DNA from: Bacteroidia bacterium
GTDB taxonomy: Bacteria > Bacteroidota > Bacteroidia > CAIKAF01
Assembly: GCA_016742095.1 (NCBI GenBank)
Contig: JACVCJ010000029.1
Span: forward strand, 1 to 45,355
Direction: 5' to 3'
Length of the DNA: 45,355 nt
Shown piece after piece: positions 29,535-40,075 of this stretch. Made by a program: the position numbers and the translations under genes. The notes beneath the pieces were generated by a model. That model worked only from the letters and a program-made list of their open reading frames with translations, did not search any database and was not told where the DNA came from. Within the stretch, counting starts at the first letter, position 1. The number at the start of each line of letters is the position of its first letter.

Positions 29535-30173
29535 TTATTCCAGCTGTTTCAGCAGGTCTTCCAGTTTCTCTTTCAGTTCCGCCACTTCGGCTTCCAGGGT
29601 ACGCACCCGCTCTTCCAGGCCCGAAGATTGTACCCGAAGGGGTTCCTGCTCTTCTTCCCAGGCGCTGAGGTCGGGTTCGCCGTTCAGCAGGTGCATATAA
29701 CGGGCTTCCTTTTGTCCGGCCTTACGCGGTAACTGCATCAGCAGGGGATCTTCTCTGGTGGTCATGGCTTCCAGTGTCTGCTGCACATGTTCCAGGGAAT
29801 CGAACTCGAAAAGACGTCCGCTGTTCGATTTTATCTCGCCCGGTGTCAGCGGGCCGCGCAGCAGCAGCAGGCAGAGCACGGCTTCTTCGGCCGTTTCCAT
29901 GTCGAGCACAATTCCGGCATTATGTTTAAACTTGATCACCCGGCTTCCGCCACCGCTTACCGTGAGTACAAGCCCGCGTCTTTTCAGTCCGTCGATGCCG
30001 ATCTGTACGGTGGTCTCATCGTACTGTACCACCGGGTTGCGTGAGCTTTTCTGGTTGCAGGCCGTTTGTATGCCTTGCAGCGACATGGGATAATATTCGG
30101 GGGTTGATTTTTCTTTTTCCAGTAATACGCCTAAAACGCGGGTTTCCACGGGATCAAGGAGCAGATTTTCCAT
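29535..30173 (-). CDS. YceH/DUF480 family protein
   Basis: A 212-residue protein of the YceH (DUF480) family. The diagnostic N-terminus is LLDPVETRVLGVLLEKEKSTPEYYPMSL with NQKSSRNPVV. Two winged-helix domains span about 1-165, and a C-terminal coiled coil (LEERVRTLEAEVAELKEKL, about 185-212) follows. The ATG at 30173 is chosen because the family always begins a few residues before L.L...E.RVLG; upstream in-frame sequence is unlike the family. The function is unknown, with DNA binding inferred from the fold. Confidence 0.92.
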   Translation of the reverse strand: MENLLLDPVETRVLGVLLEKEKSTPEYYPMSLQGIQTACNQKSSRNPVVQYDETTVQIGIDGLKRRGLVLTVSGGGSRVIKFKHNAGIVLDMETAEEAVLCLLLLRGPLTPGEIKSNSGRLFEFDSLEHVQQTLEAMTTREDPLLMQLPRKAGQKEARYMHLLNGEPDLSAWEEEQEPLRVQSSGLEERVRTLEAEVAELKEKLEDLLKQLE

Positions 30174-30306
30174 AGTGCCTGTATTGAATGAATCGATTGT
30201 TATGCAAGTATACTGAAGTTTCGCGAGGCATCCAACCCTGTGGAGTGTCCCTGTTGCAAGGGAAGAGAAAATTTGTGCGGCGCGGAGATAATCTGTACAG
30301 AACGTG

Positions 30307-30314
30307 TATATTTG
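30307..30314 (+). promoter_or_regulatory. -7 box of the SprB/glycine-rich protein gene
   Basis: TATATTTG matches TAnnTTTG and lies 20 bases before the ATG at 30335. No -33 TTTG is at the right distance (the nearest is about 31 bases upstream). Confidence 0.45.
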
Positions 30315-30334
30315 AAGCACATTACTTAACTAAC

Positions 30335-32116
30335 ATGAGAATTCCTGCTCTGTGCAGCGCTTTGCTGCTTTTCGTATGGGGTTTCTGTATTCAGAGCGCC
30401 CTCGCGTCTGCTCCCGTCCAGGGAGGCACGCCCATTACCGTAACGGTACTTAACACGGCCAATGCATCCTGCCTGGGGATCAACAACGGCTCGGCTACGG
30501 TGACCTCTTCCGGCGGGACCGCGCCATATACCTACAGCTGGAGTCCTTCCGGCGGTATCGATTCGGTGGCCACGAACCTGGCGCCCGGCGTATATACCGT
30601 ATTTGTGACCGATGCGGCGCAAAACAGCGGTATGGCTACGGTGACCATCGGTCAGAACAGCCCGGTGCTTATTTCTCTTTTGTCGCAGTCAGACCACGGA
30701 GGTTTTAATATTTCCTGCCACGGCGGCTCGGACGGCTCCCTGCTGACCACGGCCACAGGCGGACAGGCCGGCATTTATGATTCCTTGGTATACAATTACA
30801 GCGGAACGGTACAGACCTTTGTGGTGCCCGCAGGTGTACACGAGGTATTTATGAAAGTATGGGGCGCACAGGGCGGGGCCAACTGGGCCAATAATACCAA
30901 TTTCGGCGGTTATGCCGAAGGTGGAATGAATGTGAACCCCGGGGATACCCTGCTTGTATATGTAGGCGGACAGCCTGTAGGTACGGCCGGCGGCTGGAAC
31001 GGCGGCGGTGCCGGAGACGGTGGGGGAGCCGGCGGTGGCGGCGCTTCGGACGTACGCCATGGCGGCAATACACTCAATGACCGCGTAATTGTTGGAGGTG
31101 CCGGCGGCGGTGCCGGTTACTGGAGCAGCCTGCATGTAGTGGGCGGCATCGGTGGCGGACTTACGGGCGGTGATGGTTACCGCAATACCACCGTAGATAT
31201 GGGCGGACTGGGCGCCACGCAAAGTGGTCCCGGTGCGAACGGAACCTGTGTATCGTTTAACGTAACGGCGCTGGCCGGAGCCTTTGGACTTGGCGGAACA
31301 CCGCTGGGTCAGAACTGTGGTTGCGAAGGTTACGGCGGCGGTGCAGGCTGGTATGGCGGCGCAGGCAGCGGAAACTGCCGCGGCGGCGGTGGCGGTTCGT
31401 CTTACATCGGCGGACTTACCAATGCCAGTACCACCGGCGGACTGCGTGCCGGACACGGCCGTGTGGTCATTCAATATCCTCTGCCCGCATTTGCCTACGC
31501 CTATTCCTGGTCTTCCGGTATTACAGACAGTAATGCGACCGGGCTTGCGGCCGGAGAACATATACTTACCGTTACCGCCACCGGAGGCTGTACGGCCATA
31601 GATACCTTTACGCTTACCGAACCCGCAGAAATTACGGCCCTCACCAGTGCTACTGATGAGATCAACGGTAATGACGGCAGTGTGAACCTTTCCGTAAGCG
31701 GCGGGGTGGCACCCTATACCTTCCAGTGGTCGAACAACGCTACCACGCAGAACCTGAGCAATGTACCGGGAGGCGTATATACCGTACTGATCACCGATGC
31801 CAACCAGTGCACCCGAACGGCGGCTGTAACGGTAATGAGTCGTGTGGGTCTTGAAAACAGCGGTATTACGGCATTCAGCATGTACCCGAACCCGGTGTCG
31901 GACGATGTGTTCTACATCGATTTCAGCACCCTGCAACAGGCCGCCTATAACCTGAAAATAACCGATGTTACCGGCAGAACGGTATTCCTGAAGAACGGGG
32001 CACAGAAGACGGCCGGACCGGTAGCCGTGCCTGTAGGCGACTGGAAACCGGGTACCTATTTCGTAACACTCGGGAACGAAGGCAAAAAAATAACACGCGC
32101 CCTGGTAATTCGTTAA
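30335..32116 (+). CDS. Type IX-secreted protein with SprB repeats and an ALK-like glycine-rich domain
   Basis: A 593-residue exported protein. The signal peptide is about 1-25 (ALASA). One intact SprB-type repeat lies at about 40-107 (GGTAPYTYSWSPSGG). A second begins at about 112-148 (ISCHGGSDGSLLTTATGG) and resumes at about 388-430 (YAYSWSSGITDSNATGL to TLTEP). Between its halves sits a glycine-rich domain of about 230 residues (150-382) that starts with a TFVVPAGVHEVFMKVWGAQGG-like strand and ends SSYIGG ... GHGRVVIQY, as in the ALK/LTK glycine-rich domain family. A third SprB repeat (about 432-500) and a C-terminal type IX sorting domain (YPNP at about 517, to 593) follow. The ATG at 30335 gives the signal peptide. 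It is probably surface-anchored or released, with adhesive or structural use inferred. Confidence 0.88.
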   Translation: MRIPALCSALLLFVWGFCIQSALASAPVQGGTPITVTVLNTANASCLGINNGSATVTSSGGTAPYTYSWSPSGGIDSVATNLAPGVYTVFVTDAAQNSGMATVTIGQNSPVLISLLSQSDHGGFNISCHGGSDGSLLTTATGGQAGIYDSLVYNYSGTVQTFVVPAGVHEVFMKVWGAQGGANWANNTNFGGYAEGGMNVNPGDTLLVYVGGQPVGTAGGWNGGGAGDGGGAGGGGASDVRHGGNTLNDRVIVGGAGGGAGYWSSLHVVGGIGGGLTGGDGYRNTTVDMGGLGATQSGPGANGTCVSFNVTALAGAFGLGGTPLGQNCGCEGYGGGAGWYGGAGSGNCRGGGGGSSYIGGLTNASTTGGLRAGHGRVVIQYPLPAFAYAYSWSSGITDSNATGLAAGEHILTVTATGGCTAIDTFTLTEPAEITALTSATDEINGNDGSVNLSVSGGVAPYTFQWSNNATTQNLSNVPGGVYTVLITDANQCTRTAAVTVMSRVGLENSGITAFSMYPNPVSDDVFYIDFSTLQQAAYNLKITDVTGRTVFLKNGAQKTAGPVAVPVGDWKPGTYFVTLGNEGKKITRALVIR

Positions 32117-32140
32117 AAGGCGCTGGTCCATATAACATTT

Positions 32141-32174
32141 ACCCGGTACGGAAGCTTTCTGTACCGGGTTTTTT
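32141..32174 (+). terminator. Terminator after the SprB/glycine-rich protein gene
   Basis: ACCCGGTAC (32141-32149) pairs perfectly with GTACCGGGT (32161-32169), and TTTTT follows. Strong intrinsic terminator. Confidence 0.92.
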
Positions 32175-32214
32175 ATTCCCGGGAAAAGGATGTGCAATTG
32201 CGGTAAAAAGGTCG

Positions 32215-32222
32215 TAATTTTG
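32215..32222 (+). promoter_or_regulatory. -7 box of uvrB
   Basis: TAATTTTG fits TAnnTTTG, 44 bases before the ATG. The leader contains a small hairpin GGCATC (32235-32240) with GATGCC (32246-32251) just ahead of a GGAG ribosome-binding site. No clear -33 box. Confidence 0.5.
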
Positions 32223-32266
32223 CACAGGAAAAAAGGCATCTCAGGGATGCCGACGGAGAAAAAAAT

Positions 32267-34306
32267 ATGAAGTTCGAATTACAGTCCCCTTATAAACCTA
32301 CCGGCGATCAGCCCGGTGCCATTAAACAGATGGTGGCCGGCGTGCAACGCGGAGAACGTTTCCAGACCCTGCTCGGTGCCACCGGTACGGGAAAAACCTT
32401 CAGCATAGCCAATGTCATTGAAGAAGTGCAGCGCCCCACGCTGGTGCTGAGTCACAATAAAACGCTGGCGGCCCAGCTTTATGGCGAGTTCAAGCAGTTC
32501 TTTCCGCAGAACGCCGTGGAGTATTTTGTATCCTATTACGATTATTACCAGCCCGAGGCCTATATACCGACCACCGACACCTATATCGAAAAAGACCTCT
32601 CCATCAACGAAGAGATCGAAAAACTGCGGCTCAGTACCACATCGGCCCTGCTCAGCGGCCGTAAGGACGTACTGGTGGTAAGCAGCGTTTCCTGCATCTA
32701 CGGTATGGGAAACCCCGAAGATTTCTACGCTAACATCATCCGGGTGAAACGGGGCATGCGCCTGGGCCGGAATGCCTTCCTGCACAAACTCATCGATTCC
32801 TTATACTACCGCACCGAAACCGATTTTAAACGCGGTACCTTCCGGGTGACCGGCGATACGGTGGACGTGTTCCTGGCCTATGCCGACAATGCCGTACGTC
32901 TGTATTTCTGGGGCGAGGAAATTGAGATGATCGAACTGATCGATCCGTTTTCCGGCAAGAAAATTTCAGAACTGGACGATTTTGTGATCAATCCGGCCAA
33001 CCTGTTCGTAACCACCCGCGAACGCCTGAAGAACGCCGAGTACGCTATCCGCGACGACCTTACCGCACAGGTGGAGTATTTTGATAAGGAACAGAAGTTC
33101 CTGGAGGCCAAACGCCTGAAACAGCGCGTGGAATACGACCTGGAAATGATCAAGGAACTGGGCTATTGCAGCGGCATCGAGAACTACTCACGCTATTTCG
33201 ACGGCCGTAAGCCGGGCAGCCGCCCCTTCTGCCTGCTCGATTATTTCCCGGAAGATTTTATGATGGTGGTGGACGAAAGCCACGTGACCATTCCCCAGAT
33301 ACGGGCCATGTACAACGGCGACCGTCTGCGCAAGACCAACCTGGTGGATTTCGGGTTCCGTCTGCCTTCGGCGCTGGACAACCGCCCGCTGACCTTTGAC
33401 GAGTTCGAGGGGAAGATAAATCAGATGATCTTCGTAAGCGCGACCCCCGGCGATTATGAACTGCAGATGACCCAGGGCGAAGTGGTGGAACAGGTGATCC
33501 GTCCGACCGGCATTGTAGACCCGGTGATCGACATTCGGCCGAGCGGCAACCAGATCGACGACCTGCTCGAAGAAATTGAAAAACGGGCGCATAAGGACGA
33601 GCGTGTGCTGGTGACCACCCTGACCAAACGCATGGCCGAAGAGCTTACCAAATACATGGCCAAGGTGAATATCCGCTGCCGTTACATCCACAGTGAGGTG
33701 GATACGCTGGAACGCGTGGAGATACTCCGCGACCTGCGCCTGGGCGTCTTCGACGTGCTCATCGGCGTAAACCTGCTGCGCGAAGGACTGGACCTGCCCG
33801 AAGTAAGCCTGGTGGCCATACTCGATGCCGATAAGGAAGGCTTCCTGCGCAACCAGCGTTCCCTGATACAGACCATCGGGCGCGCCGCGCGTAACGTGAA
33901 CGGTACCGTGATCATGTATGCCGATAAGATCACCGACAGCATGCAGCGGGCCATCGACGAGACCGAACGCCGCCGCGAGAAACAGATACGATACAATGTA
34001 GAACATCATATTGTTCCGAAACAGGCCAAATCGGACAAGGAGCGCATCATGAACCAGACCATTGTAGGCAGCGCCAATAAGAACAAGGAGAAAAAAGGCG
34101 CTTCTTATGTACAGCCCGACGAGATCCGTGCAGCGGCCGAGGAAAGCAAAGTGGATTACCGCAGTAAGGACGATATCCTGAAAGCGGTCGAACGTACCCG
34201 CAAAGCCATGGAAAAAGCGGCGCGGGAACTGGACTTTATCGCGGCTGCCGAACTGCGCGACCAGATGTTCGAGCTGCAGAAACTGGCCGGGGAATTCAAA
34301 TCCTGA
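32267..34306 (+). CDS. uvrB: Excinuclease ABC subunit B
   Basis: A 679-residue UvrB, the damage-verifying helicase of nucleotide excision repair. Walker A is GATGTGKT (37-44). The beta-hairpin region YYDYYQPEAYIP (about 92-103), the DESH Walker B box and later helicase motifs (IGRAARN) are present. The C-terminal UVR motif (LRDQMFELQKLAGEF) binds UvrC. Length and domains are standard. It is monocistronic, with two hairpins after the stop. Confidence 0.98.
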   Translation: MKFELQSPYKPTGDQPGAIKQMVAGVQRGERFQTLLGATGTGKTFSIANVIEEVQRPTLVLSHNKTLAAQLYGEFKQFFPQNAVEYFVSYYDYYQPEAYIPTTDTYIEKDLSINEEIEKLRLSTTSALLSGRKDVLVVSSVSCIYGMGNPEDFYANIIRVKRGMRLGRNAFLHKLIDSLYYRTETDFKRGTFRVTGDTVDVFLAYADNAVRLYFWGEEIEMIELIDPFSGKKISELDDFVINPANLFVTTRERLKNAEYAIRDDLTAQVEYFDKEQKFLEAKRLKQRVEYDLEMIKELGYCSGIENYSRYFDGRKPGSRPFCLLDYFPEDFMMVVDESHVTIPQIRAMYNGDRLRKTNLVDFGFRLPSALDNRPLTFDEFEGKINQMIFVSATPGDYELQMTQGEVVEQVIRPTGIVDPVIDIRPSGNQIDDLLEEIEKRAHKDERVLVTTLTKRMAEELTKYMAKVNIRCRYIHSEVDTLERVEILRDLRLGVFDVLIGVNLLREGLDLPEVSLVAILDADKEGFLRNQRSLIQTIGRAARNVNGTVIMYADKITDSMQRAIDETERRREKQIRYNVEHHIVPKQAKSDKERIMNQTIVGSANKNKEKKGASYVQPDEIRAAAEESKVDYRSKDDILKAVERTRKAMEKAARELDFIAAAELRDQMFELQKLAGEFKS

Positions 34307-37906: not shown

Positions 37907-37957
37907 TCCACCTGTTTTCAGTAAGATTTGGTATCTTGTCCTTTAAAACCTGATTGG

Positions 37958-40075
37958 ATGAGAACGTTAATTTTACTGACATGTTCCCTGACCCTTATGC
38001 TCTTTTCCGTACGCAGTGCTGCACAGGTACAGGCTGTACATAACCCCGACGAAATCATGATCATGCTGAAACCCGGTTACGATTCCGGGCATTTCCTGAA
38101 AGAGATCAACAAGCGCGGATTCCTGGGCAGTTTTCGGGTAAAGCAGGTACTCTCGGAGCGCTATCGTCTTTACCTGCTGGGCCTGGACCCGGTAATGGGC
38201 GACAGCCGCAACTGGCTGGACGAGGTGCTGGAAAGCGAAACGGTAGCCCTGGCACAGCTCAACTACCAGGTGCAGCTGCGGGTAAATCCCAGTGATGCCG
38301 GTTTCGGCCAGCAATGGGGCCTGCATAACACCGGGCAGTCGGGTGGCTCCGCCGATGCGGACATAGACGCTCCCGAAGCCTGGGATATTACCACGGGCGG
38401 TCTTACGGCCCAGGGCGATACCATTGTAGTGGCGGTGATCGACGGCGGATTTCAGCTGACACACCCTGACCTGCAGGCCAATTATTTTAAAAACTGGGGC
38501 GATATTCCCGGCAACGGTATCGATGACGACGGGAACGGCTACATCGACGACCGCAACGGCTGGAACGCCTATAACAATAACGGTAATGTACCCAGCGACC
38601 AGCACGGCACGCACGTAGCCGGCATTATCGGTGCGCGCGGTAACAATGCTACCGGTGTAAGCGGCGTGAACTGGAACGTAAAAATAATGCCCATCGCCGG
38701 TTCCAGCGGAACTTCGGCTACCGTAGTTGCGGCCTATGCCTATGCGGCTACTATGCGCGAACTGTACAATACCACCAATGGGGCCAAAGGCGCTTTTGTG
38801 GTGTCTACCAATTCCTCTTTCGGCGTGGATTTTGGCCAGGCGGCCAGCTTCCCGATCTGGTGTGCGTTTTACGATACACTGGGTTCACTGGGTATTCTCA
38901 GCGCGGGTGCCGGTCCCAATGCCAATACCAATATCGATGCCCAGGGCGATATCCCGACCACCTGTCCGAGCAACTGGCTGGTGGCGGTTACCAATACCAC
39001 ACGTACGGATACACGTAACAACAGTTCGGGCTACGGAGCCATAAACATGGACCTGGGTGCTCCGGGTACTACTATTTACAGTACGGTAACGGGCAGCGGC
39101 TACCAGAATCTTACGGGTACTTCCATGGCTACACCGCATGTGGCGGGCTCCATCGGACTGATGTATTCTGCGGCCTGCAGTAAATTCATAACCGATTACA
39201 AAGCCAGTCCGGGTGCGCTGGCCCTGCAGATGCGTACCTACCTGCTCACGGGCGTAGACCCCATTACGGCGCTGGCTACCAATACCTCCAGCGGCGGAAG
39301 ACTCAATCTACACAAGGCCATCCAGAATGTACAGACCTACAACTGTGTCGTAGAACCGCCCCCCGTAGCGTCTTTCGCGGCCAGCGGAACTACCAGCGGC
39401 TGTGCACCCCTGAGCGTAAGTTTTACCAATACCAGCTCGGGCAATGGCAATACCTATGCCTGGGTGTTCAGCGGGGGGAACCCGGCCACTTCCACGCAGG
39501 CCGGTCCCACGGTGAGCTACAGTACGCCCGGCACCTACGATGTACAGTTGAGCGTGACCAACGGCGGCGGTACCGATGTGGAACTGCTGAGCGGTTATAT
39601 AACGGTGTTTGTAGTACCGGCAGCGCCTGTGGTGAGTGTTTCCGGCAATACCTTTACCTCATCGTATGCCACGGGTAACCAGTGGTACAACAGCGGCGGT
39701 GCCATTGCAGGCGCCACGGGACAGACCTTTACGCCCACGCAGGGAGGTTCGTATTACGTGATACACACTTCGGCAGACGGCTGCGTTTCTCCGGCTTCGG
39801 CGCCGGTAGCACCTGCGCTCGGCAATAAAGAAAATGTATACCAGGCACTGAACGTATTCCCGAACCCGGCCTCTTCGGTGTTGTATGCCGACCTCGGCGA
39901 TCTGCCCCCGTCAGCCCTGAAACTGGTGGACGCCGCAGGCCGCAGTGTGTGGCAGAAAGCACAGCAGACAGGCCTCGTGAACGTACCGCTGGACGGGCTT
40001 TCAGCCGGTATGTACACCCTGATCGTACAGGGCGGGAACACACAGGGCAACTATAAAATACAGGTGGTCCGCTAA
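37958..40075 (+). CDS. Type IX-secreted subtilisin-like serine protease (S8) with PKD domain
   Basis: A 705-residue exported protease. The signal peptide is about 1-22 (ending SAAQ), and a propeptide-like region runs about 25-110. The S8 catalytic triad is D162 (AVIDGGF), H216 (DQHGTHVAG) and S389 (GTSMATPHVAG). A PKD domain (about 468-552), an Ig-like segment (about 553-625) and a type IX sorting domain (FPNPASS to the C-terminal IQVVR) follow. The segment aligned with the usual oxyanion-hole AGN reads AGAGPN, with Ala318 in place of Asn. Secreted peptide degradation or surface processing is expected. The ATG at 37958 gives the signal peptide. Confidence 0.92.
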   Translation: MRTLILLTCSLTLMLFSVRSAAQVQAVHNPDEIMIMLKPGYDSGHFLKEINKRGFLGSFRVKQVLSERYRLYLLGLDPVMGDSRNWLDEVLESETVALAQLNYQVQLRVNPSDAGFGQQWGLHNTGQSGGSADADIDAPEAWDITTGGLTAQGDTIVVAVIDGGFQLTHPDLQANYFKNWGDIPGNGIDDDGNGYIDDRNGWNAYNNNGNVPSDQHGTHVAGIIGARGNNATGVSGVNWNVKIMPIAGSSGTSATVVAAYAYAATMRELYNTTNGAKGAFVVSTNSSFGVDFGQAASFPIWCAFYDTLGSLGILSAGAGPNANTNIDAQGDIPTTCPSNWLVAVTNTTRTDTRNNSSGYGAINMDLGAPGTTIYSTVTGSGYQNLTGTSMATPHVAGSIGLMYSAACSKFITDYKASPGALALQMRTYLLTGVDPITALATNTSSGGRLNLHKAIQNVQTYNCVVEPPPVASFAASGTTSGCAPLSVSFTNTSSGNGNTYAWVFSGGNPATSTQAGPTVSYSTPGTYDVQLSVTNGGGTDVELLSGYITVFVVPAAPVVSVSGNTFTSSYATGNQWYNSGGAIAGATGQTFTPTQGGSYYVIHTSADGCVSPASAPVAPALGNKENVYQALNVFPNPASSVLYADLGDLPPSALKLVDAAGRSVWQKAQQTGLVNVPLDGLSAGMYTLIVQGGNTQGNYKIQVVR

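Follow-up and report, generated by a model that had tools for sequence, protein, structure and literature searches.

A putative type IX-secreted protein of a Bacteroidia bacterium with an ALK/LTK-type glycine-rich domain apparently nested in its second SprB repeat

A gene in the stretch of Bacteroidia DNA analysed here (contig JACVCJ010000029.1, 45,355 nucleotides in full length, hereafter the window) encodes a putative surface protein in which a glycine-rich domain of the ALK/LTK type appears to lie inside the second of three SprB repeats. We consider it probable, though well short of certain, that this protein is a type IX-secreted adhesin whose ALK-type ligand-binding tip has moved from a HYR to a SprB stalk. 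In the proposed mechanism, three SprB Ig-like repeats would form the stalk of a protein that is either held on the cell surface or released. The ALK/LTK-type domain, a TNF-like sandwich with a glycine-rich part, would be inserted at the strand 2–3 loop of the middle repeat, and its family-variable loops, held away from the stalk, would bind an external ligand. The domain itself would stem from a HYR-hosted lineage and have been transferred onto the SprB stalk with much of its loop sequence retained. The features of the gene are as follows.

30335–32116, plus strand: coding sequence of 593 aa, putative type IX-secreted surface protein (open frame)
30335–30412, plus strand: putative Sec signal peptide, residues 1–26 (judged from the sequence by eye)
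30434–30664, plus strand: SprB repeat 1, residues 34–110 (Pfam SprB 48.2 bits on 30410–30661)
30665–30772, plus strand: N-terminal half of SprB repeat 2, residues 111–146, ending after strand 2 (Pfam 21.3 bits alone; model strands)
30773–31489, plus strand: ALK/LTK-type glycine-rich domain, residues 147–385 (Pfam 79.6 bits on 30773–31498; pLDDT 93.4; Z 16.6 to LTK)
31490–31630, plus strand: C-terminal half of SprB repeat 2, residues 386–432, strand 3 onwards (custom SprB model positions 30–72, 32 bits)
31631–31840, plus strand: SprB repeat 3, residues 433–502 (Pfam SprB 43.7 bits on 31628–31849)
31880–32110, plus strand: type A C-terminal sorting domain, residues 516–592 (PF18962 58.2 bits, TIGR04183 47.2 bits)
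32141–32169, plus strand: intrinsic terminator-like hairpin with T tract (pattern scan)

The frame is open for 642 codons in all and begins at 30188 in the list of open reading frames; we judged the start to be the ATG at 30335, which opens a signal-peptide-like stretch. When the whole protein was scanned with Pfam, SprB was reported in three stretches (4.1e-23), ALK_LTK_GRD (PF12810) at residues 173–362 (9.5e-21, 75.3 bits; cut-off 24.5) and Por_Secre_tail at 516–592 (1.1e-15), and TIGR04183 was above its cut-off in NCBIfam. Repeats 1 and 3 both exceed the SprB (PF13573) cut-off of 28, as does repeat 2 once its halves are rejoined. The domain order given by the original prediction and its residue ranges (112–148, 150–382 and 388–430) proved right within a few residues, with the insert re-set to 147–385. 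The cysteines of the glycine-rich domain are Cys 305, 328, 330 and 348.

Besides the type A sorting domain of the protein itself, the genome encodes SprA (TIGR04189, 2376.9 bits) and has at least 150 matches to the type IX tail model (150 scored of 189 candidates, one of them marked as under the cut-off). Given these tail matches and SprA, export of the protein by the type IX route is expected, and together with the signal peptide they suggest that it is secreted and displayed at the surface. The review PMC11205867 counts SprB and RemA as examples of adhesins among the type IX proteins.

The second SprB repeat is recognised chiefly when its two parts are joined. Against the Pfam SprB model the N-terminal half scored 21.3 bits alone and the C-terminal half had no Pfam match, while the rejoined halves reached 29.4 bits, exceeding the cut-off by only 1.4 bits. 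In a custom SprB model, built in rounds and finally from 377 matched stretches that include the window's own repeats, the C-terminal half aligned from position 30 of 73. A joint MAFFT alignment of 35 non-redundant SprB triplets with no other rows split the middle repeat around the insert in 35/35, which is the outcome of a single alignment and not of 35 independent tests; when rows of glycine-rich domains were added, the SprB rows piled onto the insert instead. With the insert removed, the protein aligned over residues 19–354 of 354 with a protein from a same-family genome (L144; E 3.8e-45, 33% identity), and 65 of the 75 alignments listed in the search with the insert-free protein cross the junction. 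Pfam found four SprB stretches but no glycine-rich domain in the 567 residues of L144 that were covered, its start possibly being cut at the end of the locus, and its tail is of the type found in the window protein. Because L144 aligns across the junction and the split halves are complementary, the window protein resembles an SprB array with a domain placed in its middle repeat. Taken together, the rejoined Pfam score, the alignment and the insert-free homologue support the predicted nesting of the glycine-rich domain within SprB repeat 2.

The insert itself was expected to adopt an ALK-like fold, and both the sequence profile and the predicted structure agree. A profile of 62 bacterial domains (the window's and 61 others) matched eight distinct PDB sequences at E ≤1, all of them ALK or LTK, the best at E 1.7e-8 over profile positions 9–242. 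AlphaFold2 run on the 62-domain alignment modelled the insert with a mean pLDDT of 93.4 and a pTM of 0.91. Foldseek ranked LTK and ALK first (1.8e-8), followed by the Pam3 fibre and the Bxb1 tail tip, with a loose superposition on ALK/LTK (TM about 0.5, rmsd 8–12). VIA-align matched 189 of the 239 residues to LTK (7nx0, Z 16.6, rmsd 3.4) and 189 to ALK (9g5i, Z 16.1, rmsd 3.3), the identity in these structural alignments being 28–29%; Pam3 (7ypx, Z 10.7, 135 aligned) and Bxb1 (9d93, Z 9.9, 134 aligned) came next, followed by the first unrelated entry at 4.3. These Z-scores indicate fold, not function. Polyglycine II helices are a feature of the glycine-rich part in the ALK_LTK_GRD family.

The likeness to the ligand-binding region of ALK/LTK (PF12810; 7nx0, 9g5i, 7lrz) extends over almost the whole insert. 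The matched receptor chains are longer, at 279–362 residues versus 239. Pfam finds no kinase or transmembrane part in the window protein, which is probably type IX-secreted and carries the domain nested in an SprB repeat. The insert also resembles the tail fibre gp24 of cyanophage Pam3 and the Bxb1 tail tip. For the Pam3 fibre, PMC9608196 reports host recognition by TNF-like and glycine-rich domains with a resemblance to ALK. These phage proteins differ from the window protein in being virion fibres, trimeric and chaperone-assembled, and the accessible text describes no nesting in a repeat domain.

The closest relatives of the insert occupy a different host. Fourteen genomes from three other families (G486, G090, G482 and 11 more) carry a copy of the domain at 59–73% identity to the window's, with four cysteines similarly placed, and in 14/14 it sits in an N-terminal HYR domain rather than in SprB repeat 2; this count leaves out second, truncated neighbouring copies in two loci. 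The presence of the same insert in HYR domains elsewhere, at up to 73% identity, had not been part of the original prediction. The rejoined HYR domains of the 14 scored 41.7–61.0 bits, each above either half, with the C-terminal half alone already reaching 20.7–40.5 bits in the custom HYR model. The same insert in an SprB host was found in one genome only among those searched, which include 16 genomes of the window's order and no other of its genus. The next nearest copy, at 55% identity, belongs to a same-family genome (G011) and lies at the end of its protein. In one of the loci (L047) the HYR host is followed by further HYR domains. Beside two relatives (L250 and L251) a second gene begins with half a HYR domain and a glycine-rich domain and is cut by the end of the locus, from which it seems that such genes may come in tandem.

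Trees of the domain point in the same direction. A tree of 94 domains, which leaves out redundant, short and very divergent ones and has many weak forks, requires at least 28 changes of host context, against a mean of 56.7 in shuffles; if only its well-supported branches are counted, the number forced is lower, 2 to 6 for each context. Since there are fewer context changes than in shuffles, hosts appear to be inherited, yet also switched. The window's domain falls among the HYR-hosted ones. In a tree of the subtype it pairs with G486 (95/89) inside a four-row group (99/98), with an end branch of 0.37 for the window versus 0.10. At the DNA level the window and the G090 copy share 71.9% identity across 548 bases, a stretch that lies wholly inside the domain. 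At the columns that vary within the family, the window is 48–67% identical to five HYR-hosted relatives, compared with a median of 9% and a maximum of 29% to the other 103 domains, the five having been picked by an overall similarity that includes these same columns; all five share with the window four cysteines at like places. The simplest reading, as we infer it from the tree, is that in the window's lineage an SprB repeat acquired the domain from a HYR host, much of the loop sequence surviving the move.

Since its close relatives sit in a quite different type of repeat, the domain looks like an exchangeable binding tip, and by analogy with ALK/LTK and phage fibre tips its loops may bind a ligand. 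The main alternative gives the glycine-rich domain a structural or oligomerising role, in TNF-like trimerisation or as a spacer or protective cap. PMC9608196 describes a trimer for Pam3 gp24, a protein of the same fold. However, at the family-variable loop residues the window's domain mostly agrees with HYR-hosted relatives that stand on another stalk, a pattern more in keeping with a binding surface than with a spacer, and we regard a purely structural role as unlikely, while taking it seriously. An adhesin with a ligand-binding tip is the reading we prefer. It would mean that bacterial stalk proteins use, as an insert that can be exchanged, a domain known in animals as a receptor-type ligand-binding domain, which sequence and predicted fold support. 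Closely related tips standing on HYR or on SprB provide material with which to test whether the stalk can be swapped while tip binding stays unchanged. A wider proposal, which we offer tentatively and would not bet on, is that ALK-type domains are natural grafted tips in Bacteroidota, the whole domain, its loop chemistry intact, being recombined among different loops of unrelated Ig-like scaffolds (HYR, Ig_7, SprB) and protein ends. Stalk and specificity would then evolve separately, and animal ALK/LTK would be one more graft of a bacterial or phage recognition module. The bacterial domains in any case bear on the origin of the ALK/LTK ectodomain and on what it bound before a cytokine.

PF12810 has a single match in the window's genome. 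It was found in 31 of 100 genomes drawn from its relatives and in 5/395 of a phylum draw at E ≤1e-10, both counts including this genome. When the window region was used to search a class draw, 48/395 genomes had matches at E ≤1e-15, no more than five candidates being scored in each. The 128 distinct domains collected comprise 65 at the end of a protein and 63 in the interior. A first census of nesting, in which linkers were left untrimmed, called 13 of the 63 interior domains (8 in HYR, 5 in Ig_7; the window was not among them), along with 54/600 random cuts. In a second census, up to 8 residues were trimmed on each side, in real and control cases alike; the custom Ig_7 model was built from only six sequences. 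At a gain of 8 bits this called 22/63 interior domains (13 Ig_7, 8 HYR and 1 SprB, the window), 0/65 at protein ends, 25/400 random cuts (21 of them SprB) and 6/252 shifted joins; at 3 bits it called 34/63, 1/65, 60/400 and 25/252, respectively. Because random cuts in SprB also yield junction-spanning matches (21/400), the census alone is no proof of the window case. The SprB figure for the window's N-terminal flank is 8.7 for the half by itself and 44.4 when the complete repeat 1 next to it is counted in.

Nearly the whole host profile was recovered by Pfam above cut-off in eight of nine rejoined flanks, HYR in four and Ig_7 in four, one HYR case being barely over (21.9 vs 21.7); a further example, L070, was left out of the nine. 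For the ninth (L069) Pfam named no host domain, and by eye it appears nested in a PKD-like domain. One HYR N-terminal flank, run alone as a half-domain control, gave no match. Judged by sequence, the insert enters SprB at the loop joining strand 2 to strand 3, Ig_7 shortly before its end and HYR in the middle. Insertion into a sandwich domain had been described as unusual; this must be corrected, since it recurs inside HYR and Ig_7 domains, and the rare feature is the SprB host, not insertion as such.

Whether the two halves of repeat 2 pack as one domain was addressed with a model of residues 34–502 (12-row alignment, mean pLDDT 66.3), in which the confidence of the N-terminal half is mixed, with ten-residue blocks from 48 to 85. 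Repeat 2 has strands at 78–82 and 101–109 (model numbering) before the insert and at 356–359, 367–371, 374–381 and 387–394 after it, a set that resembles those of repeats 1 and 3 and places the insert between strands 2 and 3. The alignment was picked from 160 random row sets for splitting repeat 2, and therefore packing in this model counts as support and not as independent proof. VIA-align matched the model best to GhpA of Aureispira (9flw, Z 11.1), a three-domain match that aligns 210 residues of model positions 1–469 with a chain stretch of 245 residues, and its two-domain matches span 1–394 or 76–469. Repeats 1 and 3 can supply about 150 residues, which leaves some 60 or more of the 210 to the part that separates them; these likely belong to the half-repeats rather than to the insert, only end points being reported.

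A broken array, in which the half-repeats on either side of the glycine-rich domain have degenerated and lost their mutual packing, would account for the modest rejoined SprB score, for the mixed confidence of the N-terminal half and for the random cuts in SprB arrays that sometimes rejoin. We nevertheless find it improbable. The halves are complementary, repeat 2 has the same kind of strand set as its neighbours, the structural matches extend either across repeats 1 and 2, as far as the end of the latter, or from where repeat 2 begins through repeat 3, and HYR and Ig_7 hosts nest the domain likewise. The moderate-confidence model is consistent with a nested domain around which the two halves of repeat 2 would pack as one.

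A chimeric assembly, with two sources joined in the bin, is very unlikely. The junction is known from a single genome, and GC is higher over the insert (0.65 vs about 0.55); against a chimera, both junctions are in frame within one open frame of 642 codons and the insert fits between complementary halves, and the raised GC follows from glycine codons. Finally, the thought that the insert is a low-complexity stretch without the family fold hardly deserves credence: its glycine content is high and the HMMER bias term large (39.3 bits), yet a pLDDT of 93.4 with pTM 0.91, a Z of 16.6 to LTK against 4.3 for the first unrelated entry, and PDB matches to ALK/LTK only at E up to 1 largely contradict it.

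Among proteins with SprB repeats and a type A tail, L144 and a paralogue in the window's own genome (L128) share repeats and tail with the window protein at 33–34% identity through the junction; unlike it, they have no insert in the stretches covered. The SprB gliding adhesin is very large and mobile, whereas the window protein has 593 aa and three repeats. The matched entries of GhpA have residue numbers above 4,000, and the likeness reflects a common Ig-like arrangement, from which no membership is claimed. Grappling hooks are made of a type IX-secreted protein, as stated in the review PMC11205867.

Several other architectures were observed. In genome G481 (C1, 1955000–1990500 apart from a gap of 2.5 kb), loci L235 and L236 together hold fifteen open reading frames with a glycine-rich domain of this kind at the C-terminal end or close to it, and upstream of it several are nearly identical; this is a tandem adhesin cluster that is possibly recombining. 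In the one of these frames scanned with Pfam, the glycine-rich domain alone was named. Four proteins of about 1,700–2,300 residues from same-family genomes of genus g5 (L084, L092, L094 and L139) each contain four such domains, the first two of which were called Ig_7-hosted, and genomes of this genus have up to 23 PF12810 matches versus one in the window's genome. An open reading frame at L233 has two tandem glycine-rich domains (residues 68–326 and 332–565) in what appears to be a single HYR domain.

The fold also occurs in viral sequence collections. In the viral structure library BFVD, 143 predicted proteins match the insert fold at E ≤0.001. Several are named receptor protein-tyrosine kinase, likely a naming error that perhaps arose from the glycine-rich domain alone. 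In a phage collection, tblastn found two records for the whole protein, one over the SprB part only; the insert gave a single record, limited to its first 61 residues. Relatives are encoded at no fewer than 51 loci on viral contigs, and in most of these the match covers roughly the first 110 residues. Among titles and abstracts of the open-licence literature, PF12810 is named in one paper, which deals with a fungus, and we found no description of these bacterial domains or of their presence in type IX proteins; the terms glycine-rich, ALK, SprB and immunoglobulin are absent from the available text of a survey of domain insertions (PMC13114784).

Direct repeats at the edges of the insert were considered as an insertion scar and rejected, as the best pair agreed at 9/10 bases, was matched by 91/2000 shuffles and had its copies in different frames. 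The gene is flanked on one side by a DUF480 gene on the opposite strand and on the other by an open reading frame (32267–34306) that we take to be uvrB. The region has 6 terminator-like sites, against a mean of 2.8 in shuffles, and an Rfam scan of 30000–32400 returned nothing at gathering scores. An antisense frame of 516 residues runs through the gene (30689–32239, minus strand) and is most likely a by-product of GC-rich glycine codons. Elsewhere in the window, 37928–40075 (plus strand) encodes a subtilase that also contains a PKD domain; its type IX tail is under the Pfam cut-off (25.9 vs 27) and over that of NCBIfam (36.5 bits).
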